Shown here one piece after another: positions 1,123-14,031 of a stretch of 14,031 nucleotides of DNA. A model generated the notes under the pieces. It ran no database searches and was not told the origin of the DNA. It was given only the letters and a program-made list of their open reading frames with translations. A program made the translations under genes and the position numbers. Source of the stretch: Cuniculiplasma sp. (GTDB taxonomy: Archaea; Thermoplasmatota; Thermoplasmata; Thermoplasmatales; Thermoplasmataceae); contig JAGDXN010000080.1 of NCBI GenBank assembly GCA_023256455.1, positions 47,539 to 61,569 of the forward strand, written 5' to 3'. The number at the start of each line of letters is the position of its first letter. Position 1 is the first letter of the stretch.

Positions 1123-3117
1123 ATGGACGAACACAAAAAAGGTGGAAAGGAATTAACTCCTGAAAGCATAGGTTTTTCAAAATCAAACATGGACATGTCA
1201 GCCGATCCCTATGAGGACTTTTACAGATATGCAAACGGAAAATGGATTGATAATAATCCTGTTCCTGCAGACAAGTCAAGCTGGGGTGCTTTTTATGAGC
1301 TTCACGAACTGAACATGCACAGGCTGAGGGAAATACTCGAGGAATGTGCTTCAAAATGCACAGAAGATGGAAAAACAAATATTGATCTTGTTGGCAGATT
1401 CTATAAATCTGTGATGAATACAGAAGAGATCGAGAAGAGAAAATTCAATCCTGTAAATGCTTTGCTGGAAAAAATAGATTCAATACAATCCCGTGAATCA
1501 TTAATAGATATGATTACGGAAATGCATAGATCAGGGACATTTCCATTATTCACCGTATTTTCAGAAAATGACCAGAGGAACAGTTCAATTTATGCATTAT
1601 ATTTCTACCAGGGCGGATTAACCCTGCCCAACAGGGATTATTATATTGAGGAAAGATTCAGAGATGTTAAGGAATATTATGGAGAGTACATAAAAAAGGT
1701 CTGGAAGCTCTATGGAATGGCTGAAGAGGACTCAGAAAAATACTCATCAATTATAATGGATGTGGAAAATGCCATAGCGGGATCAAGCAGGAAGCAGGAA
1801 GATCTGAGAGATGCGGAAAAGAATTACAATAAGTTTACAATAGCTGAACTTAATAAAAAATACCCGAACATGGGTTTTGAAAAATACCTTGATAAAATGG
1901 GCATAAGAGGCATTGACTATGTGATTGTGGGCCAGCCTGAATTCTTTGAATTTCTAAACAAATTCCTTGCTTCCATGGATCTGGAAAACTTAAAAATATA
2001 CATGAAATGGATTGCGCTGAACAACAGGATGCCCTATTTGAATAAAGAGGCGGAAGATCTTCATTTCGATATGTTTTACAGGAAGATAAGGGGGCAGAGA
2101 GAAAAGGAGGAAAGATGGAAAAAAGCGGTTCATATTATTGACAGCTCCATAGGAGAGGCTCTGGGTGAAATATATGTGAAAAAATATTTCACTGAAGAAT
2201 CAAGAAAGAGAATGGAAACCATGATCAGCGACATAAGGGAGGTATTTACTGAAAAGGTGAATAAACTTCCATGGATGGGTGAGGAAACAAAGAGGAAAGC
2301 GCTTCAAAAATTCTCAAAATTCCGGGTAAAGATAGGGAATCCACCAAAATTCAGGGATTATTCATCCATTCAAATTCTGTCCGATGATCTGACAGGAAAC
2401 GTTGCAAGGGCATGGGAGTTTGAGGTGAAGAGGCAGGCAGAAAGGGCTGGAAAGGAGGTTGACAGGGATGAATGGTACATGACACCTCCCACAATAAATG
2501 CCTATTTCAATCCAACAGAGAACGAGATCGTATTTCCCGCTGGAATAATTCAGCCGCCATTCTTTGATCCTAATATGGATGACGCCGTCAATTATGGTGG
2601 CATTGGGAGTGTCATATGCCATGAAATAACCCATGGCTATGACGATCAGGGCAGACGCTATGATGAAAACGGAAATCTGGGGGACTGGTGGACAGAGGAG
2701 GACGCAAAAAAGTTCAGTGAAAGAGCTGATAAGATATCAGAACTGTACAGTTCTCTTGAAGTACTTCCAGGATTTAAGGTGAATGGAAAGCTTACCCTTG
2801 GTGAGAATATTGCCGATTTTGGCGGTGTGAGCATTGCATATGAGGCGCTTCAGAAGCATCTCGAAAAGCATCCTGAGTTGCGGAAGGAGATCGACGGCTT
2901 TACTCCTGAACAGAGATTTTTCCTGTCCTGTTCACAGATATGGAGGCAGAACACAAGGGAAGAGACCCTGAAGATGCTGATTTCAATGGATCCCCATTCC
3001 CCTGCAAGATACAGAGGAATGGTTCCGCTTCAAAACCACCCTGAATTCAAATCCGCATTTAAATCAACAAAGGGGCATGATAAACCCGTCTACAGCAGGG
3101 ATATAACCATATGGTAA
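1123..3117 (+). CDS. M13-family (neprilysin/PepO-type) zinc metallopeptidase, apparently cytosolic
   Basis: This 664-residue endopeptidase has the full length of the M13 family. Zinc ligands are H500 and H504 in HEITH and E561 in GENIAD, with catalytic E501 and the supporting D565. The substrate-backbone motif NAYFNP lies at 459-464. The C-terminal HSPARYR (H625, R631) corresponds to the neprilysin catalytic His/Arg pair. The protein ends in TIW, like the family's terminal xxW. The N-terminal M13 domain begins with DPYEDFYRYANGKWIDN at 28-44. Most M13 enzymes are membrane-anchored or secreted, but here the first 27 residues are polar (MDEHKKGGKELT) with no signal peptide or membrane helix, so it should act in the cytosol on imported or internal peptides. 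It is a single-gene unit: TATA-like element about 25 bases upstream, no Shine-Dalgarno, terminator-like hairpin at the stop. Confidence 0.93.
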   Translation: MDEHKKGGKELTPESIGFSKSNMDMSADPYEDFYRYANGKWIDNNPVPADKSSWGAFYELHELNMHRLREILEECASKCTEDGKTNIDLVGRFYKSVMNTEEIEKRKFNPVNALLEKIDSIQSRESLIDMITEMHRSGTFPLFTVFSENDQRNSSIYALYFYQGGLTLPNRDYYIEERFRDVKEYYGEYIKKVWKLYGMAEEDSEKYSSIIMDVENAIAGSSRKQEDLRDAEKNYNKFTIAELNKKYPNMGFEKYLDKMGIRGIDYVIVGQPEFFEFLNKFLASMDLENLKIYMKWIALNNRMPYLNKEAEDLHFDMFYRKIRGQREKEERWKKAVHIIDSSIGEALGEIYVKKYFTEESRKRMETMISDIREVFTEKVNKLPWMGEETKRKALQKFSKFRVKIGNPPKFRDYSSIQILSDDLTGNVARAWEFEVKRQAERAGKEVDRDEWYMTPPTINAYFNPTENEIVFPAGIIQPPFFDPNMDDAVNYGGIGSVICHEITHGYDDQGRRYDENGNLGDWWTEEDAKKFSERADKISELYSSLEVLPGFKVNGKLTLGENIADFGGVSIAYEALQKHLEKHPELRKEIDGFTPEQRFFLSCSQIWRQNTREETLKMLISMDPHSPARYRGMVPLQNHPEFKSAFKSTKGHDKPVYSRDITIW

Positions 3118-5217: not shown

Positions 5218-5616
5218 CTATGAAAGGATCGCAAAAACATAGTTAAGTATTATTCCAGATACTATGAATAAGAGGCCAATTCCCGCATATATGGATGTCA
5301 TTATTAGCTGTTCCCTGTTAATATTTGTTATGTCATCCTCTCTCAGGCGTGCCCCCGTAATAAAAACACCCTCAAGATATTTGTTTGCGCCGAAATCGTA
5401 GAATGCCCCAAAAAATATGATCACCACACCAAGAAGGACAAGAGCGAGAGGGAATACATTGGCGTCTGCATATCTTCCTGTAAAGAAAAAAATGGATGAG
5501 GCAAGGAGAAGGGAAAGCAGAAGGACAAAAAGAGGGAGAGCAAGAAGAAATCTTACCCTCCTTATTTCCGATCTTCTCTGTTCTTCCGGGCCATTCCGAA
5601 GAGAAAGGTCTTTCAT
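5218..5616 (-). CDS. Small membrane protein, last gene of the peptide transporter operon, unknown function
   Basis: This 132-residue protein has three predicted membrane helices at about 22-46, 54-75 and 104-130. A charged N-terminal tail (residues 1-21, rich in Arg and Glu) and a polar loop at 76-103 containing RLREDDITNINREQ flank them. I do not recognise a family. The ATG lies 6 bases after the stop of the dual ATPase gene, and AAGTGAAAGG precedes it as a weak ribosome-binding site, so it is very likely co-translated with the transporter. Possible roles are a small accessory subunit of the importer or an unrelated passenger; nothing in the sequence decides. The codon pattern and the hydrophobic/charged layout support a real gene. 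Confidence 0.7.
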   Translation of the reverse strand: MKDLSLRNGPEEQRRSEIRRVRFLLALPLFVLLLSLLLASSIFFFTGRYADANVFPLALVLLGVVIIFFGAFYDFGANKYLEGVFITGARLREDDITNINREQLIMTSIYAGIGLLFIVSGIILNYVFAILS

Positions 5617-5622
5617 GCCCTT

Positions 5623-8229
5623 TCACTTCTCTTCTGCCAGATCTCCCTCTTCAAGGTTTTCCTCATCTGTCATAATCTCGTTCAGTGTGAGCTCCTCCTG
5701 CCTGAAGTGACACATATAGTATCTATCGCCCACTTTTTGCATTGGTGGGTCCTCCTCGATGCACACCTCTTTCCTGAATACACATCTTCCGTAAAATCTG
5801 CATCCTTTCTTTGGGTTTATGGCGTTCCCTATTTCTCCAACAATCCTGAGATTTTTGTTAACCCATGTTGGATCAACGCTGGGAACAGCCGAAATCAAAG
5901 CCTTGGTGTACGGATGCAGGGGATTTTTCACAACATCTTCAGATTTTCCGAATTCAAGGATCTGTCCAAGATACATCACAATTATGTAGTCTGAAACATA
6001 TCTTGCAGATGCAATATCGTGGGATATATATAGAACAGATATGCCTCTGGTTTCTTTGAGTTCAATGAGCAGATTCATGATGTTTGCCCTTATGGAAACA
6101 TCCAGCATTGATATGGGCTCATCGGCAACTAAAAATGAAGGACTCAGAGTAATTGCTCTTGCAATGGAAACCCTCTGCCTCTCGCCTCCCGAAAGCTCGT
6201 GGGGGAATCTTTCCGCGTATTTCTCAGGCGGCCTCAGATTAGCTGTGGAAAGGGCATTCATAACTTCCCTTTCCATATTGAAATCTTCTTCGATTCCGGA
6301 ATTTGAAGATCTCCTTCTCGATTTTATCTCCTCTTTCTGGATTGAAAGGGGTTCGGCAACAATGTCGAATATGGACATCTTCGGGTTAATGGAATCAAAC
6401 GGGTCCTGAAATATGAGCTGGGCCTCTTTCCTGAAGGTCTTATAATCAGAGCTGTAACGGCTCACCTTGCTTAGCTCAATCTCCATTTTCTCCTTATTTT
6501 CCTTTAAGATATTGAATTTTATTTCACCTTTCGTTGGAGGTATGGAATCCACCAGCAATCTTCCAAGAGTTGTTTTTCCCGAGCCGCTCTCACCCACCAC
6601 TCCAAGTATGCTGCTCCTTGGTATGGAAATGTTCACATCGTCCACTGCGTGAACCACAGGTTTGTTCGTTCCTCCAAACAGGTTGGTGGAAATTGTGGAA
6701 TGCACGGTAAAAAACTTTGTGAGGTTTGAGGTTTCTATAAGATTTTCCTGCTGTATATTCAGGCTGGGTGATTGGCTTATACTTGATTCTCCCATGAATG
6801 ATGAATAGGCATTTTCATCTATGGAATCAAAGTGGCAAAGGGAATAATGGTCACTGTCAAGTTTTTTAATCTCCGGTTTTGTTTCAAAGCATACCTTTTG
6901 GGCCATGAAGCATCTTTCCGCAAAGTAACAGCCCTTTGGCGGGTCGATCATATCCGGAACTGATCCAGGTATTCCCTTTATTCTTGTCTTTGTCTGTTCA
7001 AGAGATGGATAGCTTTTCATCAGAGCGTACGTATATGGGTTTTTTGGTTTCAGGAATATATCCTTTGGTTCTCCATATTCCATAATTCTGCCTGCATACA
7101 TCACGGCGACAAAATTCGCCAGCTGGGATACAACACCCACATCGTGAGAAATCACAATCATTGATTTTATTGTCTTGTTTTCCTTTAGGTTTTTCAATTC
7201 CTTTATAATTTTTGCCTGTGTTATGACATCAAGTCCTGTCGTTGGTTCATCTGCAATCACGATCCTTGGATGCAGGGCAAGAGCCATTGCTATGATTCCC
7301 CTCTGTCTCATTCCCCCACTGAGCTCATGGGGATAGGAATCAAGGAATTTTCTGCTAAATCCAGCCAGTCTGCAGCTTTCCTCGATCCTGTTTTTCTCCA
7401 GCAGTTTTCTCTTTTCCTTATCACTCATATTTGGAAGTTTTGTCTTAATATCCTGAAGCAAATTGTTAAAAATCTCCTCTTTCAGACTGTCCAGGTCCTT
7501 TATATCCCCGGTTTCCCTGTATTCCTGTACAGCTCTTTTATATGCCTCATCTCTGATTCTTTCATAGGCCCCATTCTTTTCCATGTATTCCTGTTTCTGC
7601 TTCTCCCCCATGTCCCTGAGGTTCGATTTGTATTCCTCAACAAGACTCTTAAAAATTTCTTCAGTCCTGCTATCTACCTGCCTCTTTTCGTTATCTGAAA
7701 TTTCCTGGAGAGCTAATTCGTACGCTTCTGCTCTAAGATTATCCTCATCAATGTAGTCCCTCTCTGAAAATTTTGAAAGGTCTGCGAAGGTGCCATGAAT
7801 CTCGAAAACCTCATTTATCTGGTTCCTTATGGTATGCACAGGATTGAAAGCATTCATTGCACCCTGGAATATCATTGATATCTCCTTCCATCTGATTTCG
7901 GCAAGCCTCTGATCCAGGTCCCTTCTGTATTTCTTTTTCAACTTTTTGGATTTGGGATATTCCTTAGAATTGAGGATTTCTCTGTCGAGATAATTTATTT
8001 CCCCCTCGACTATGGAATTTTCCGCAAGGAGTCCAAGGAGCGCCAATGCCGTTGTTGATTTACCAGATCCGCTTTCACCGATTATTCCAAGAATCTCGCC
8101 CTCATTAAGTACGAGATTGATGTCGTCAAGAGCTTTCACGTTTCCATCCAGGGTTCTGAATGTAACATTAAGGTTCTTTATTTCCACGAGTCTGTTTCTG
8201 CTCATTATGTCTATCTGTTCTGTTTCCAT
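5623..8229 (-). CDS. Fused dual ATPase of a dipeptide/oligopeptide ABC importer (DppD-DppF in one chain)
   Basis: This 868-residue cytosolic protein energises peptide import. The first half (DppD/OppD type) has Walker A GESGSGKST at 51-59, Q-loop Q122, signature LSGGMRQR at 303-310, Walker B IVIADEP with E328 and H-loop H362. The second half (DppF/OppF type) has Walker A GESGSGKTT at 546-554, Q608, LSGGERQR at 679-686, Walker B FLVADEP with E704 and H737. Both sites look intact. Each half ends in the oligopeptide-transporter C-terminal domain, with four cysteines (434, 440, 447, 465 and 810, 816, 823, 840), in the pattern that binds an Fe-S cluster in OppD-type ATPases. DppD and DppF are usually separate chains of about 330 residues. 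The excess length comes mainly from an insertion at about 145-285 in the first half. The start at 8229 has a strong GGAGG site 8 bases upstream, inside the end of the permease gene. Confidence 0.92.
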   Translation of the reverse strand: METEQIDIMSRNRLVEIKNLNVTFRTLDGNVKALDDINLVLNEGEILGIIGESGSGKSTTALALLGLLAENSIVEGEINYLDREILNSKEYPKSKKLKKKYRRDLDQRLAEIRWKEISMIFQGAMNAFNPVHTIRNQINEVFEIHGTFADLSKFSERDYIDEDNLRAEAYELALQEISDNEKRQVDSRTEEIFKSLVEEYKSNLRDMGEKQKQEYMEKNGAYERIRDEAYKRAVQEYRETGDIKDLDSLKEEIFNNLLQDIKTKLPNMSDKEKRKLLEKNRIEESCRLAGFSRKFLDSYPHELSGGMRQRGIIAMALALHPRIVIADEPTTGLDVITQAKIIKELKNLKENKTIKSMIVISHDVGVVSQLANFVAVMYAGRIMEYGEPKDIFLKPKNPYTYALMKSYPSLEQTKTRIKGIPGSVPDMIDPPKGCYFAERCFMAQKVCFETKPEIKKLDSDHYSLCHFDSIDENAYSSFMGESSISQSPSLNIQQENLIETSNLTKFFTVHSTISTNLFGGTNKPVVHAVDDVNISIPRSSILGVVGESGSGKTTLGRLLVDSIPPTKGEIKFNILKENKEKMEIELSKVSRYSSDYKTFRKEAQLIFQDPFDSINPKMSIFDIVAEPLSIQKEEIKSRRRSSNSGIEEDFNMEREVMNALSTANLRPPEKYAERFPHELSGGERQRVSIARAITLSPSFLVADEPISMLDVSIRANIMNLLIELKETRGISVLYISHDIASARYVSDYIIVMYLGQILEFGKSEDVVKNPLHPYTKALISAVPSVDPTWVNKNLRIVGEIGNAINPKKGCRFYGRCVFRKEVCIEEDPPMQKVGDRYYMCHFRQEELTLNEIMTDEENLEEGDLAEEK
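7390..7734 (-). repeat. Tandem duplicated helical module inside the first ATPase
   Basis: Residues 166-219 and 226-280 of the dual ATPase align with each other: both start R-x-E-A-Y-x-x-A-x-Q-E, share D-S-x-x-E-E-I-F in the middle and finish with E-K-N. A hand alignment gives about 22 identities in some 54 positions with one gap. The copies have diverged, so this is an old protein-level duplication and not a recent DNA repeat. Confidence 0.7.
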
Positions 8230-8231
8230 TT

Positions 8232-10502
8232 TTATCTCCTCCTCAACCTTGGATTAACTACCTCATCCATTCCTCTCGACACAAATATCAGGGAGAAGAT
8301 AAATGCGCTAAGGGCTATGGCTGGCGGAATTATCCACTGTGGCTCACTTATGAGATAGAACTCATCCTTGAGCACTGCATTGAGCATTCCTCCCCATGTT
8401 GCCGTATTTAATGGAGCAAGGCCCAGGAACTCAAGTCCGGAAACTGCCCCAACGCCTCCGCTTATGGAAAGTGCCAGCAAATAAAGAAGAAGAGGGCCAA
8501 TATTGGGCAGTATGTGCCTTCTCATTATGGATGAAGTTTTAGAACCGAACAGTTTTGATGCTTCCACAAAGGACCTGGAAGATACGCTCCTGACAACTCC
8601 AATCAGTGTGAATGCCGCAAAGGGCCAGCCCGTAAGGCTTACTATCAAAATCAGGTCAATGAAGTTTGCATTGCCCGGCAGGACTGATGACAGTGCTATA
8701 AGCAGTGCTAGGGCTGGAACAAGGAAAAGGGCAAGGGAAAGCGTCTCAATTATCTGCCCTCCAATGCCTCCCTTGTAACCCACATACATGGACACAGCCA
8801 GTGAAATAACTATTGAGAAAAAGCCTATACTTATTCCGAACAGCCAGTCATTATAGAAGCTCTGTAGAAATCTTGCCCACAGATCAGCCTTGGTGTAGAA
8901 TGTAGTTCCGAATGGGAAGGATTGTCCAGTAGGAGTTTTGATCATAGGCGGCAGTGGGGCATAGGAGGATGCGGTTGATCCTATTATGTACAGATAATTG
9001 GCATTGGTAACAAAGGCTATGGCACCCTGTCCGGTGTTGCTGTTTGAGAAATAAAGCACAGGAGAAACATTTGTTGGTGTAGGTGAAACTGTGTAACTCC
9101 AGAGAAAAGCGTTTGCACTTGAGTTAGCACTATCATTGAAGGATAAAGCAATTCCCTTTTGGGCAACAAAAATAAGGGAATTCGTGACGGCATCATAGAC
9201 ACCGTGGCTGATAATTGCCCCAGAGGTGGCTGAAGAAAATGGTACACTATAATATACATATTTGTGAATAGTGCTGTTATAGGATAATATCATTATGTTA
9301 TTGGCCGACATCCCCAGTATATCTGAGGGTAATCCATTTGTTCCCAGTGTTGTAGAAATGGAATCTGCAGGATAGGGGAACCTGTATATGAGGGAAGAAT
9401 TCCCGGTCCCCAAATTCATTGAGTATACCTCAGATTTGTTCACAAGCACATAGGCTGAATTATTTTTTGCCGCTGATACCTGGTAGAATGAAGGTATTAC
9501 CACACCATTCTGTACATCTACACTCTTAAACCTGTCATTCCACATCATTGTACCGTTAAATGGAGAGTAGGCAACCACCGATGTATCATTGTATATAAGA
9601 ATCCTTGAAACATTGAAGGCCTGACTTTGATAAAGCAATTTTCCGTAATATTCTACACCGGATACCTTAGAGATGTTAATTTTTACAGAAATCTCTTTTT
9701 GATATGGATATATGGAAAATCCATTCAGATATGTACCCGTGGAGTTCTTTGTTACTGCAAACATTTCTCCGTTAGTGTATCCTGGTGCCTGATTATAACA
9801 ATATTGAGGCATGGGTGTGCTTGGAGCCTTATCAAAGGAGATTGCATTACTGACAACATTGCCCTCCAGCGTTCCATTTAGTTTAATATTATAAAGATAT
9901 TGAAACTGAGGAGTATTAAGTTGTGACGTTCTATATTCCAGCTCACCCACTGTAATTGAGTCATTGGAATATGGCATAATTATGAACCTGTGGATTACAA
10001 CATCGAATCCTTGAGATCTTGTTAACTCCGCCCCATTTATCAAATCAAAGACCGAAGGTTGATACATGATCTCTGAATTACTTTTAAAATTAGAACTGTA
10101 TATCAATCCTAAAGATCCCAATGGGGTGTTAGGATCTCCAAGTCCCACATAGTATAATGAACCATTTTTATTTGCCAGATATATGGCACCAACATACCCT
10201 TCACCCTCAACCGATGATGCAAGAGGTGTATAGAAGCCCGAATCCTTAAGGTGCGTTGCATTGGTAAGATTTACAACTGCGATTGGGGTAGCAAGGGTGG
10301 AATCTATGGCAGGTGCTGCTGCGTAATATCCTACGTTACCACCAATATAGGGTGCCAGCATTGTAATTATGGCGAAGGCTAAAAGTATATAAAATCCAGC
10401 CCGCCCATATTTACTCTTGTAAAATATGGTGAACTGCCTGTACAGCCTCTTCCAGTAAACAGGGGGGTTAATCAGAGCATATTTATTTTTTTTATCCGTC
10501 AT
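8232..10502 (-). CDS. Peptide ABC importer permease, DppC type, with a very large extracellular insertion
   Basis: This 756-residue membrane protein is more than twice the usual DppC/OppC length of about 300. Residues 1-35 are a basic cytoplasmic tail, followed by helix 1 at about 36-54. The segment 524-540 (PTGQSFPFGTTFYTKAD) stands where DppC proteins have P-x-G-T-D-x-x-G-R-D. The core permease domain then follows: helices at about 552-575, 583-606, 613-636, 667-688 and 725-742. The coupling-helix EAA motif EASKLFGSKTSSIMRRHILPN lies at 647-667. Between lie about 470 residues (55-525) that are beta-rich and rich in Asn, Ser and Tyr, with about 17 N-x-S/T sequons, in short strand-loop units resembling a beta-propeller. 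Topology places this part outside the cell. Translation starts at 10502 with AAGGTG five bases before the ATG. Substrate is probably peptides; the insertion's function is unknown. Confidence 0.9.
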   Translation of the reverse strand: MTDKKNKYALINPPVYWKRLYRQFTIFYKSKYGRAGFYILLAFAIITMLAPYIGGNVGYYAAAPAIDSTLATPIAVVNLTNATHLKDSGFYTPLASSVEGEGYVGAIYLANKNGSLYYVGLGDPNTPLGSLGLIYSSNFKSNSEIMYQPSVFDLINGAELTRSQGFDVVIHRFIIMPYSNDSITVGELEYRTSQLNTPQFQYLYNIKLNGTLEGNVVSNAISFDKAPSTPMPQYCYNQAPGYTNGEMFAVTKNSTGTYLNGFSIYPYQKEISVKINISKVSGVEYYGKLLYQSQAFNVSRILIYNDTSVVAYSPFNGTMMWNDRFKSVDVQNGVVIPSFYQVSAAKNNSAYVLVNKSEVYSMNLGTGNSSLIYRFPYPADSISTTLGTNGLPSDILGMSANNIMILSYNSTIHKYVYYSVPFSSATSGAIISHGVYDAVTNSLIFVAQKGIALSFNDSANSSANAFLWSYTVSPTPTNVSPVLYFSNSNTGQGAIAFVTNANYLYIIGSTASSYAPLPPMIKTPTGQSFPFGTTFYTKADLWARFLQSFYNDWLFGISIGFFSIVISLAVSMYVGYKGGIGGQIIETLSLALFLVPALALLIALSSVLPGNANFIDLILIVSLTGWPFAAFTLIGVVRSVSSRSFVEASKLFGSKTSSIMRRHILPNIGPLLLYLLALSISGGVGAVSGLEFLGLAPLNTATWGGMLNAVLKDEFYLISEPQWIIPPAIALSAFIFSLIFVSRGMDEVVNPRLRRR
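8233..8244 (-). promoter_or_regulatory. Strong Shine-Dalgarno site for the dual ATPase
   Basis: The minus strand reads GAGGAGGAGAT just before the ATG at 8229, matching the archaeal 16S tail complement GGAGGTGA closely. It overlaps the final Arg codons and stop of the DppC gene, supporting translational coupling across a 2-base gap. Confidence 0.8.
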
Positions 10503-10524: not shown

Positions 10525-11511
10525 TTAAACCTTTATCCTTGGGTCAAGGTATGCGTGTATATAGTCTATCAGGGAATAGGCCAGTATGGTCAACAGGGCA
10601 ATTATAAAGGTTGAAGCCTCACTCAGGGGATAGTCTTCGTGAAGGACGGCCTGGTATAGAAGAGGACCCATTCCTGGCCAGTTGAATATTATGGCCACAA
10701 TCAAACTACCGCTCATTAAAAAGGCAATCTGAAGTGCCAGCCTTGTCGTTACCGGTATAACTGCAATCCTTGCAGCATGTTTTCTCAATATACTTTTCTC
10801 CGGAACACCTTTAGCCCTTGCAGTTGTGATGTGATCTTCACCAAGGGTGGAAACCATGGCTGCCCTCATGGTTATCATATGTCCTGCAGTTTCTATGAAT
10901 AGAAGGGAGAAGAAGGGAAGGGCCATATCATACAGCAAAACTCCTATAGTATAGGGGGTGGGCGACTCTATGTAGGATAGTGGAATTTGGGCCTTAATGG
11001 GAAACCATCCCAATGCAACAACAAAGTAAAGGAACAGGAAAACACCTATTATGAAATATGGAACTGAATTCACTATAAGCGAGATTGATAGAACCGCGCC
11101 CTCTTTTTTTGTACCTCTAATCTTGGAAACCCATATACCTAGAGGTATGCCGAAAGCAAATGAGAGAATGGATGTTGTCCCTATCAAAACAAGGGTGTAT
11201 GGAAGGGCCTGCGCAATCTCAGTGGAAACCAGTTCACCGTGATTAATATAATCTGGACCCCAATTAAATGTGAACATCTGATAAAGATAAGTTTCAAAAT
11301 CAGTCAGGGAATATTTCCCATTCTGCAAACCTAGCTGAGCCAGCCTTGCCTGGTATTCGTGTGGATTCACATAACCAGTTCTGGAAACAGTTATGAAAAG
11401 TTCAGCCGGATTACCTGGCATAAGTCTGAACACAACAAAAATTATCACGGTCATTATGAGAACAAGCGATATATCCTGAATAACTTTCCTCATTAACAAA
11501 TATTTATTCAT
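10525..11511 (-). CDS. Peptide ABC importer permease, DppB type
   Basis: This 328-residue protein has the standard length and landmarks of DppB/OppB. Helix 1 at about 12-29 runs into the family hallmark FRLMPGNPAE (28-37). An extracellular segment follows to about 103, then permease helices at about 104-129, 137-168, 189-208, 255-275 and 300-320. The EAA-type coupling motif is EDHITTARAKGVPEKSILRKHAARIAVIP (225-253), with the conserved A-R-A-K-G-V. Downstream FNWPGMGPLLYQAV (276-289) and the final YLDPRIKV are also typical. It pairs with the DppC-type subunit to form the channel. The start at 11511 follows GGAGAG with five-base spacing. The gene lies 50 bases after the binding-protein stop in the same direction. 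Confidence 0.93.
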   Translation of the reverse strand: MNKYLLMRKVIQDISLVLIMTVIIFVVFRLMPGNPAELFITVSRTGYVNPHEYQARLAQLGLQNGKYSLTDFETYLYQMFTFNWGPDYINHGELVSTEIAQALPYTLVLIGTTSILSFAFGIPLGIWVSKIRGTKKEGAVLSISLIVNSVPYFIIGVFLFLYFVVALGWFPIKAQIPLSYIESPTPYTIGVLLYDMALPFFSLLFIETAGHMITMRAAMVSTLGEDHITTARAKGVPEKSILRKHAARIAVIPVTTRLALQIAFLMSGSLIVAIIFNWPGMGPLLYQAVLHEDYPLSEASTFIIALLTILAYSLIDYIHAYLDPRIKV

Positions 11512-11561: not shown

Positions 11562-14031
11562 TTACGCCTTTTTATTTTTCTTTTTGACGTTCACCATGTA
11601 TATGACTGCCCCGGCAACAGCTATTATGACAACTATTGCAGCAATTATGTAATAGTCGCCATTATTGCCGGTGACAGGTACTGATGGTTTACTTGGTGTG
11701 ACAGCTGGTTTTGCAAGACTGAACATTGGCTGTATGGTGTAGTTGTTTATGGTATTGTTGTTTGAATAAATCATCGCAGTCAGTGTGGTATTCTTCAGTG
11801 AGCCTATCAATGTGTATGCTGAGAGGTTTTTGTCCACAGTGAAGTTAAACACAGCCATGCCTGATGAGTTTGTCTTTTCAGATGTTGTTGAAACTGTTAT
11901 ACCGTCGAAGGTTGAGCTATTAAGCATCACTGTGGCTCCTGCATAGGCATTTCCTCCATAGGTCACTTCAAAGACCAGCTGGCCGCTCTCAAGAAGGTAC
12001 GCTCCATTCACGCTGGTGTTATTGTATTTGAGGTTCTCAACCTTGTAGTTCGCCTGCAGTATGGTTCCGTTCACCACATCAATGGTTACGTTTCCAGTTG
12101 CAGTTCCAGTCTCAATTGCGTGTGGTTGTGATGCTGCAACAACAATCTGTACAGTCTCGTTATGGACATAGAAGGTTGCACCTGTTGTTTGATTTGTGCC
12201 GGTAAGCAGTGAGCCGATATAGCTTACAACCTTAAACTCCCACACGGCCTGTCCGTTAGCATTGGTTGTGATCTCATTTGGCGTTATATTTACCACACCA
12301 CCATATGTTGATGAGGAGCCAATGTATAAGGTCACTCCAGCTGCAGGTGAGGTTCCGTTCATAACTGTGAATGTTATGTTTCCATAGCGATCACCATTGA
12401 ATGTGTTACCATAGTTCAGTGTTTCGGTTACATTGAGATGGTATTTGTCAACCACCTGGCTCACTGAAGTGTTCTTGTATATTGTGGTATATTCCCAGAA
12501 CCAGTAGAGATAGGTTGCTGCTGAATAGGTTGTGGAGTAGTTTGAAAACTGATCTGACAGGGGTATGAGATCTGTTGCGTATCCTGTGCTTATTACTGGA
12601 TCCTGTTCCACTATGAGTGTCTGCAGTTCCTTGGCAACCTGTGAGGCAACGCTAAAGCTGTCTGTGTTTATGGATTTATTTATAAGAGTGCAGAACAGCT
12701 GCTGAACCTGGTTACCGCTGAGCAACTTTCCGTTCACGGTCATGGATGAGAATGGACCGAGGTAACTTTTGGCCGGGATTCCAACAACAGGTGAAAGATG
12801 AGCCTGGCAATCCAGTATTGGGTCTGAAAGGGCTGTACTCTCTCCTTCTGAGGCTATTTCAAACAGATTATTCTTGTGATGACTCAGTATGGTGTTATCC
12901 ACATTGGACTGAAGTGTTGTGAATGCCTCCTGCTTCAGCACAGTCTTAATTCCCAGCTGATTCCAGTATTCAAATGTCTTTTCAACAGCGGCAACTCCAG
13001 TTGGGTTCTCAGCACCAGTTGTTATTTGGACTGTTAAGGTTACCTGCTTGCCATCATAGAGAAGATTGCCGCTGGATGTGTATGTCATCCCTGGTATGCT
13101 CTCTATAAGGGATTTGGCCTTTGCCATGTTGAAATTGTAGTTTGGTGAACTGGCGTTGAAATAGAGTGTATTACCGGGGTTGATTGGGCTTGAAGAGGGA
13201 TAGCCAAGGCCATCAAGTATAACCTGATTTATGTAATTATAAGGAACAGAGTAGGACAGAGCCTGCCTGAATGCTGTTATGTTTAATGGTGCTACGGCAG
13301 TATTCAACTCCCAGTAACCATATGCGCTGGACAGTTTCTTGTAAATAAAACTGTTGGGCGTAGACTGTAACTGAGGAAGGAAGTTTGGCGGCGGGGCAAT
13401 AGTCATGGTGTCAATCTGTCCTTTCTGGAATGCGGCAACCTCTGATGATACGGAGTCGTATATGGGCATGTAAATCTCATAAATCTTTGGTGTAAACTGT
13501 CTCAAACCACTTGATGCGGGAGTATACTGGGTGAAGTAATACGGGTTAACATAGAGTGTCTCGTGCTGGCCCGGTATTATCTGACCCTGAGGCATTCCGA
13601 AATTGTTTGTAACCATGAATGCTCCTGCTCCGACCATGCCAGGAACGGCTCCAGTTGTGGGATTCCAGCTCAGGTTCCAGCCGCAATAACCGTCTCCAGC
13701 TATGGCTGTGTTCTTGAATGGGGATGCAGGGTTTGATAAATTTGTCCAGTTAAAGTCACCCTGACCAGATGTGGTGTAATCATGGTGGACCCATATGTGA
13801 TAGGGCAATATATCGCAGGCAAGTACATCGGTGAAGAATAGAAGAGTTTGTTTGGTTACAAAGAACTTGACTGATAGATTTCCGTCCGGTACTACACTTA
13901 CAACATTTGGGAAGTCGCCAAAGTATGCCTTTATCCTGTAGTTCAGAACAACGTCTGCAGACTGGAGATAGTATGTTCTCATTACTGTGGGTTTGTATGA
14001 TTTGAAGGTGTGGTTTACAGGTGCACCGCCG
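11562..14031 (-). CDS. Peptide ABC transporter substrate-binding protein (SBP family 5), N-terminus cut by right edge, C-terminally anchored
   Basis: The frame is open to the window edge: 16 codons precede the ATG at 13982, so that ATG is internal and at least 822 residues are present. Counting from that methionine, the DppA/OppA-type lobe includes QSADVVLNYR at 7-16, equivalent to the family's 'TADDV..s..R' segment, and LNTAVAPLNITAFRQALSYS at 226-245, the classical 'N....P..d..vRqAl.yaid' signature, with AKAKSLIES at 287-295. After about residue 515 come two Ig-like domains (about 520-618 and 625-745), each with a turn of the type T-N-x-x-G-x-A-x-(W/F)-x-F (573-583, 704-713). A Pro/Ser linker (760-772), one membrane helix (about 777-797) and the basic tail KKKNKKA follow. 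It should capture peptides outside the cell while anchored by its C-terminus, as in many archaeal binding proteins. Numerous N-x-S/T sequons suit glycosylation. The operon promoter lies beyond the window. Confidence 0.9.
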   Translation of the reverse strand, partial: GGAPVNHTFKSYKPTVMRTYYLQSADVVLNYRIKAYFGDFPNVVSVVPDGNLSVKFFVTKQTLLFFTDVLACDILPYHIWVHHDYTTSGQGDFNWTNLSNPASPFKNTAIAGDGYCGWNLSWNPTTGAVPGMVGAGAFMVTNNFGMPQGQIIPGQHETLYVNPYYFTQYTPASSGLRQFTPKIYEIYMPIYDSVSSEVAAFQKGQIDTMTIAPPPNFLPQLQSTPNSFIYKKLSSAYGYWELNTAVAPLNITAFRQALSYSVPYNYINQVILDGLGYPSSSPINPGNTLYFNASSPNYNFNMAKAKSLIESIPGMTYTSSGNLLYDGKQVTLTVQITTGAENPTGVAAVEKTFEYWNQLGIKTVLKQEAFTTLQSNVDNTILSHHKNNLFEIASEGESTALSDPILDCQAHLSPVVGIPAKSYLGPFSSMTVNGKLLSGNQVQQLFCTLINKSINTDSFSVASQVAKELQTLIVEQDPVISTGYATDLIPLSDQFSNYSTTYSAATYLYWFWEYTTIYKNTSVSQVVDKYHLNVTETLNYGNTFNGDRYGNITFTVMNGTSPAAGVTLYIGSSSTYGGVVNITPNEITTNANGQAVWEFKVVSYIGSLLTGTNQTTGATFYVHNETVQIVVAASQPHAIETGTATGNVTIDVVNGTILQANYKVENLKYNNTSVNGAYLLESGQLVFEVTYGGNAYAGATVMLNSSTFDGITVSTTSEKTNSSGMAVFNFTVDKNLSAYTLIGSLKNTTLTAMIYSNNNTINNYTIQPMFSLAKPAVTPSKPSVPVTGNNGDYYIIAAIVVIIAVAGAVIYMVNVKKKNKKA

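Follow-up and report, generated by a model that had tools for sequence, protein, structure and literature searches.

An eight-bladed propeller predicted in the TM1-TM2 loop of a Cuniculiplasma DppC-type permease, with a possible role beside the binding protein

Large extracellular domains are rare in the permeases of ABC importers. What, then, is the long stretch that parts the first transmembrane helix of a DppC-type permease in Cuniculiplasma sp. from the remainder of the protein, and what might it do there? The gene lies in a window (the whole stretch of DNA analysed, 14,031 nucleotides) as an open reading frame of 756 aa, and its product is laid out as follows:

8232..10502, minus strand: long DppC-type permease (ORF call, Pfam and fold match)
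10341..10412, minus strand: TM1 helix, residues 31-54 (helix at 31-54 in the predicted model; weak OppC_N match at 26-53)
8964..10316, minus strand: predicted beta-propeller of eight blades, residues 63-513, within the TM1-TM2 loop (predicted model and fold matches)
8883..8921, minus strand: degenerate PxGTDxxGxD segment, residues 528-540 (sequence and alignment)
8235..8882, minus strand: permease core TM2-TM6, residues 541-756 (Pfam PF00528 and DppC fold match)
8544..8564, minus strand: coupling-helix (EAA-type) motif EASKLFG, residues 647-653 (sequence)

Pfam places BPD_transp_1 (PF00528) at residues 569-755 (1.2e-17, above gathering) and OppC_N at residues 26-53 under its gathering score (E 0.024). 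OppC_N matches 33 of the 35 members of alignment A3 at E<=1 (best 4.3e-6), and a fold comparison aligns TM1 and the core of the model to DppC over residues 18-753, so the OppC-type N-terminal TM1 is there. None of the named NCBIfam DppC, OppC or NikC equivalogs scores over its curated cut-off (the best, Opp4C, reaches 96.1 against 350 bits), and the genes of a Dpp/Opp operon, i.e., DppB, SBP_bac_5 and oligo_HPY ATPases, are present in the window and in relatives. Judged from sequence, the protein belongs to a peptide-type (Dpp/Opp) ABC importer, as its DppC subunit. Protein searches, in which scoring covered the 7999 candidates with most shared words, gave a relative with 73% identity, P0002 of Cuniculiplasma sp. 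SKW4.

A preliminary description of this DNA had placed a large insert between TM1 and the degenerate segment, and that observation is confirmed: in 82 long DppCs, 447-907 residues (median approximately 500) separate TM1 from TM2, compared with 43-67 in ordinary ones where the gap can be measured. The degenerate segment is where it was described and reads PFGTTFYTKAD, and the three strands quoted at 307, 441 and 493 are correctly positioned. The reported EAA motif stands as a coupling-helix motif but not to the letter, since EASKLFG makes it EAS.

The span then given for the inserted domain, 8928-10340, corresponds to the propeller plus its linkers. Counting blades in the predicted structure gives eight, assigned by hand from the model's strand inventory, with an N-terminal strand taken to complete the last of them:

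10269..10298, minus strand: N-terminal strand, residues 69-78 (strand in the model; pairing deduced from strand order)
10032..10193, minus strand: blade 1, residues 104-157
9873..10001, minus strand: blade 2, residues 168-210
9633..9773, minus strand: blade 3, residues 244-290
9495..9611, minus strand: blade 4, residues 298-336
9345..9464, minus strand: blade 5, residues 347-386
9189..9329, minus strand: blade 6, residues 392-438
9042..9185, minus strand: blade 7, residues 440-487
8961..9032, minus strand: blade 8, residues 491-514

The model has a pTM of 0.67 and does not fix the orientation between domains. In a fold comparison, 315 of 319 residues align to the eight-bladed Tako8, and blades resemble one another at E<0.01 in 11 of 28 pairs, as against 0 of 32 blade-permease controls. 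According to the model, a complete eight-bladed BamB-like propeller sits in the extracellular TM1-TM2 loop of DppC, and the predicted architecture of DppC plus inserted propeller is well supported.

Propeller families of Pfam, including PF13360, give no match at E<=1 in the window's own DppC, and it is among relatives that they appear. At a loose limit of E<=1, PQQ_2 is matched by 21 of the 29 proteins in group 2 (best 6e-11) and by 10 of the 35 in the window's group (best 3.3e-4); for Beta-prop_ACSF4 the counts are 20 (best 9.3e-22) and 6 (best 2.3e-6), in that order. Ten relatives were also taken one by one at E<=0.01: seven matched a propeller family and three (L110, L047 and L035) matched none; the gathering score of PQQ_2 (PF13360) was passed in L069, L079 and L085. 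Inserts of the window's group and of group 2 are homologous from end to end (96.2%, E 2.3e-9, 413 columns; 0.1% in two insert-permease controls). Model, fold matches, relatives' Pfam matches and blade similarity thus bear out the propeller-like domain first proposed from alternating strands and turns, without a Pfam match of the window's own.

The possibility of homologues in related archaea had also been raised, and long DppCs with a homologous insert do occur across Thermoplasmata, alongside genes for DppB and the ATPases and, in most cases, one for a solute-binding protein (SBP). Among 61 genomes searched, one of them the window's own, frames of at least 690 aa were found in at least 18 of the 37 from its genus and family and in at least 14 of the 24 from elsewhere in the order, as judged on frame length with the insert inspected in part of the cases. 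Named genomes gave 256 matches, of which the best 80 were retained, a choice that favours long forms. All but L086 and L094 of these 80 were measured, and in 71 of the 78 TM1 is separated from the permease core by 357 residues or more (L059 and L076 among these being apparent DppB-DppC fusions); four are ordinary (L101, L104, L106 and L109), and three are cut or show no TM1 (L049, L097 and L107). Record titles among the best 80 name Thermoplasmata, Methanomassiliicoccales, DHVE2 and one Bathyarchaeota MAG, whose frame (L097) has 561 aa and no TM1 seen; groundwater MAGs among them carry long DppC as well. A sample of the phylum had a DppC match at E<=1e-20 in 32 of 120 genomes and a frame of at least 690 aa in 15 of the 32. 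Two of those 15 are fusions with ordinary loops, leaving long DppC in 13 of 32, so long DppC is not universal in the family or the phylum.

The window's group forms a single clade (38 rows, 100/100, with L032 in place of the window). The tree does not show a single origin of all long DppCs: with 104 rows it requires five changes, compared with 27 when labels are shuffled, and it carries warnings about joined long branches. Two distribution markers were set aside. The insert-only profile A6 hit 68 of 244 genomes, and most of the hits lay in frames of other lengths resembling PQQ-type proteins generally; the window's own genome gave none, and for most genomes six or fewer candidates were scored. 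Frame length alone is misled by DppB-DppC fusions with ordinary loops, as in G063 and G124.

Several loci depart from the common layout. L144 and L145, from other Thermoplasmatota genomes, are DppB-DppC fusions with ordinary loops, and the apparent fusions L076 (1718 aa) and L059 retain the long DppC loop. In G042, long DppC (L019) is split into frames of 454 and 333 aa by a frameshift or assembly break. A DppC-like ORF of 1171 aa at L078:2968-6480 has a 907-residue loop, with PQQ_2-like matches in part of the ORF. L136, L138 and L140 have another permease pair, distant from Dpp, with a DppC loop of approximately 375 residues and a DppB loop of approximately 300; no ATPase was found nearby. 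The long operon (L151) of G009, a single-contig genome of the same genus, lies approximately 17% along it. A proteome paper places a PepT-family ATPase, CSP5_0340, among 2016 genes (PMC7285479), and it may be the ATPase gene of L151, provided that G009 is that paper's strain.

What, then, surrounds the permease? The window holds these neighbours, the binding protein lacking its 5' end because the window stops at the contig end:

11562..14030, minus strand: SBP_bac_5 solute-binding protein, 5' end missing (Pfam), upstream
11706..12446, minus strand: Ig-like stalk of the SBP, approximately two domains, fragment residues 529-775
11580..11654, minus strand: C-terminal TM anchor of the SBP, residues 793-817 (low-confidence helix in the model)
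10525..11511, minus strand: DppB-type permease of ordinary length, 328 aa (ORF call, Pfam), upstream of DppC
5623..8229, minus strand: fused DppD-DppF ATPases, 868 aa, a Cys motif in each half (Pfam, motif search), downstream
5218..5616, minus strand: hydrophobic ORF of 132 aa downstream of DppDF (locus comparison)

The SBP model is poor overall (pLDDT 44.9), and its C-terminal part alone was used; the C-terminus is hydrophobic in 53 of 63 SBP frames of more than 860 aa. Each half of DppDF has three spaced Cys (from 434 and 810), a putative iron-sulfur cluster motif, with CHF following it in both translated halves. A charged, probably helical insert lies between Q-loop and signature of the first half (approximately 7375-7797) and by eye resembles a tandem duplication of a segment of approximately 62 residues; the window and L032 both have 182 residues from Q-loop to signature, the nearest loci 121-135 and nearly all other readable ones 57-58. 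Nearly every locus of the window's group has the 132-aa ORF, none was detected in group 2 loci, and its Pfam matches are weak DUF ones, nothing stronger. The window also encodes an M13 family metallopeptidase at 1123-3117 (M13_N 1.2e-114, M13 5.9e-66), in which no signal or TM segment is obvious by eye.

Gene order is conserved across most long loci. Where the contig extends far enough, long DppC nearly always has DppB and ATPase genes next to it; the SBP is usually the first gene, sometimes lies downstream and was not found in some loci. To compare operons, we set 82 long against 24 ordinary ones. Nine more DppC frames fall outside both classes, four having no measurable loop (L049, L094, L097 and L107) and five having loops of 207-379 residues (L135, L136, L138, L139 and L140). 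An SBP lies within 7.5 kb in 64 of the 82 long operons, and none was found in the other 18, many of which are close to contig ends. All 53 whole SBPs (43 without near-duplicates) are 872-1700 aa long, often with Ig-like domains, whereas the SBPs of ordinary operons that have one are 528-669 aa (13 of 13), all of these being frame lengths that may include residues upstream of the true start. The 11 SBPs cut by the locus end comprise nine fragments of at least 918 aa and two uninformative ones (L078, 433; L092, 639). Nine of the 13 ordinary operons come from genomes that also carry a long operon and three (L101, L104 and L109) from other phyla; the ordinary operon of L063 was excluded because its nearest SBP belongs to the long operon. 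Enlarged SBPs and long DppCs share operon and ancestry, so their association does not amount to many independent events.

Group 2 operons whose DppB loop spans 211-431 residues have SBPs of 934-1031 aa (9 of 9; also nine without near-duplicates), and those with a DppB loop of 85 or fewer have SBPs of 1473-1700 aa (13 of 13; nine without near-duplicates), a pattern that could stem from few evolutionary events. As a general rule, a strict exchange of DppB insert for SBP length was rejected: it fails in the window's group, whose DppB loops are 65-123 residues at any SBP length. Long DppBs have weak Ig-like matches (Filamin 9e-4, PKD 2e-3). One of the 17 SBPs of the window's group in alignment A7 has propeller-like matches (NHL 3.1e-6 and Vgb_lyase 3.4e-6, one member each).

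The preliminary description offered three functions: capping the translocation path, docking the binding protein or protecting the complex in acid. Docking and gating beside the SBP fits best among those offered, because of the co-occurrence with enlarged SBPs. We propose that the propeller may be an extracellular docking and gating platform for a tethered SBP, comparable to MalF P2, and regard this as an even call. The propeller would be a fixed extracellular domain of the translocator that docks and orients the membrane-tethered, Ig-stalked SBP above the DppB/DppC entrance and, in a cell without an outer membrane or S-layer, helps to wall off the entry cavity. It would probably help to keep the peptide in, the scoop motif of DppB would presumably go on handling that peptide, and the whole would act as a larger analogue of MalF P2. 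In the E. coli system, DppA caps DppB and DppC, two subunits that are unlike each other in TM1 and in the periplasmic regions TM1-TM2 and TM3-TM4 (PMC12136057); the propeller should therefore lie near the docking site. MalF P2, which touches MalE, is a precedent for contact between a permease region and a binding protein (PMC3150292). The proposal also draws on the conserved gene order, on N-glycosylation sequons that in the window's DppC fall within the insert alone and on the purifying selection that acts on it.

The insert itself bears on other explanations. Approximately 17 N-glycosylation sequons had been reported, and residues 55-525 contain exactly 17 N-X-S/T sites, the remainder of the protein none; shuffled inserts have 7.8 +/- 2.4, with at least 17 in 0.05% of 2000 shuffles. 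This density would suit a surface coat, in which propeller and Ig-stalked SBP are abundant in an unordered layer and the insert leaves transport unaffected, and the large SBPs of the window's group also have many sequons. A cryo-tomography study describes C. divulgatum as having no S-layer and an unordered exterior protein layer of approximately 20 nm (PMC12448462). However, long DppC is found outside Thermoplasmatales as well, ordinary SBPs of the family are sequon-rich too and several group 2 SBPs are sequon-poor, so we consider a coat unlikely.

The same 17 sequons could instead make the insert a glycosylated cap that shields the complex from acid or protease, and the genus is acidophilic (PMC7285479). 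Ordinary Dpp operons of the same genome (L121 and L122) and of relatives nevertheless lack the insert. Conversely, it is present in Methanomassiliicoccales and groundwater MAGs, lineages which we take not to be acidophiles, and acid protection is accordingly disfavoured. In archaeal filament proteins, moreover, the number of N-glycans is reported not to correlate with growth pH (PMC12448462). We therefore rate a shield as highly improbable.

Comparison of the window with L032 gives a dN/dS of 0.096 for the insert and 0.012 for residues 526-756, which indicates that the insert is under purifying selection, less strict than in the permease; identity to L060 is 63% in the insert and 93% in the permease. 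Such faster divergence is also expected of a passive spacer or decoration, dispensable and retained through drift, and thus counts against docking. A spacer would likewise fit the family genomes where, among the matches listed, the insert was not seen. It fits poorly with that same dN/dS of 0.096, and with an open frame, a location and an insert homology maintained class-wide, and we judge it improbable.

Rapid divergence could also mirror changing ligands if the propeller were itself a receptor, binding peptides, proteins or glycans and concentrating them at the entrance. The faces of propellers often bind ligands. However, the insert has no conserved polar patch, positions conserved at 85% or more being for the most part Gly, Pro, Tyr and Trp, plus a single Ala and a single Asp, and the operon already has a binding protein, so a receptor is decidedly unlikely. 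The same set of residues makes a scaffold likelier than an enzyme, and an enzymatic role appears unlikely on sequence grounds.

A class-wide propeller linked to SBP build offers a system in which to study docking and substrate retention without a periplasm. DppC and the SBP are also concrete candidates for components of the exterior protein layer of Thermoplasmatales (PMC12448462). A broader and rather unlikely extension is that Thermoplasmata without an S-layer keep a permanent peptide-import antechamber outside the cell, built from the DppC propeller, Ig-like modules on DppB or SBP and the tethered SBP, which would also form a substantial part of the exterior layer.

How does this compare with known systems? 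The initial interpretation, partly supported overall, knew of no named system with this arrangement; that much stands for open-licence PMC, where titles and abstract starts gave no paper describing such a permease, but any uniqueness does not, the arrangement being widespread. With the L085 insert as query, 28 proteins were found among the 7999 candidates scored, 24 of which pair PF00528 with a propeller Pfam in precomputed annotation; those that are named bear a generic permease name or 'hypothetical protein', so the architecture is in databases with no comment seen. The propeller-bearing DppC is a variant of the Dpp/Opp importer for which we found no published description in open-licence PMC.

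E. coli DppC, as seen in DppABCDF (PDB 8z1v-8z1z), has 300 aa and no inserted domain. BamB and PQQ-like eight-bladed propellers share the predicted fold, but the window's propeller is inserted in a polytopic permease, and its DppC has neither a Pfam propeller match at E<=1 nor a Bam complex context. MalF P2 is alike in that it, too, is large, extracytoplasmic and part of the permease of a type I importer, with a fold and loop that are presumably other than those of the DppC propeller. It comprises residues 91-271 of MalF (PMC3150292), far smaller than the propeller. The E. coli DppB scoop motif also belongs to a TM1-TM2 region, but it has approximately 30 residues and lies in the partner subunit, DppB rather than DppC; it enters the DppA cleft as a proposed cavity seal (PMC12136057). 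The loops of 211-431 residues in nine DppBs of group 2, all from operons with a whole SBP, lie in the TM1-TM2 region as well.
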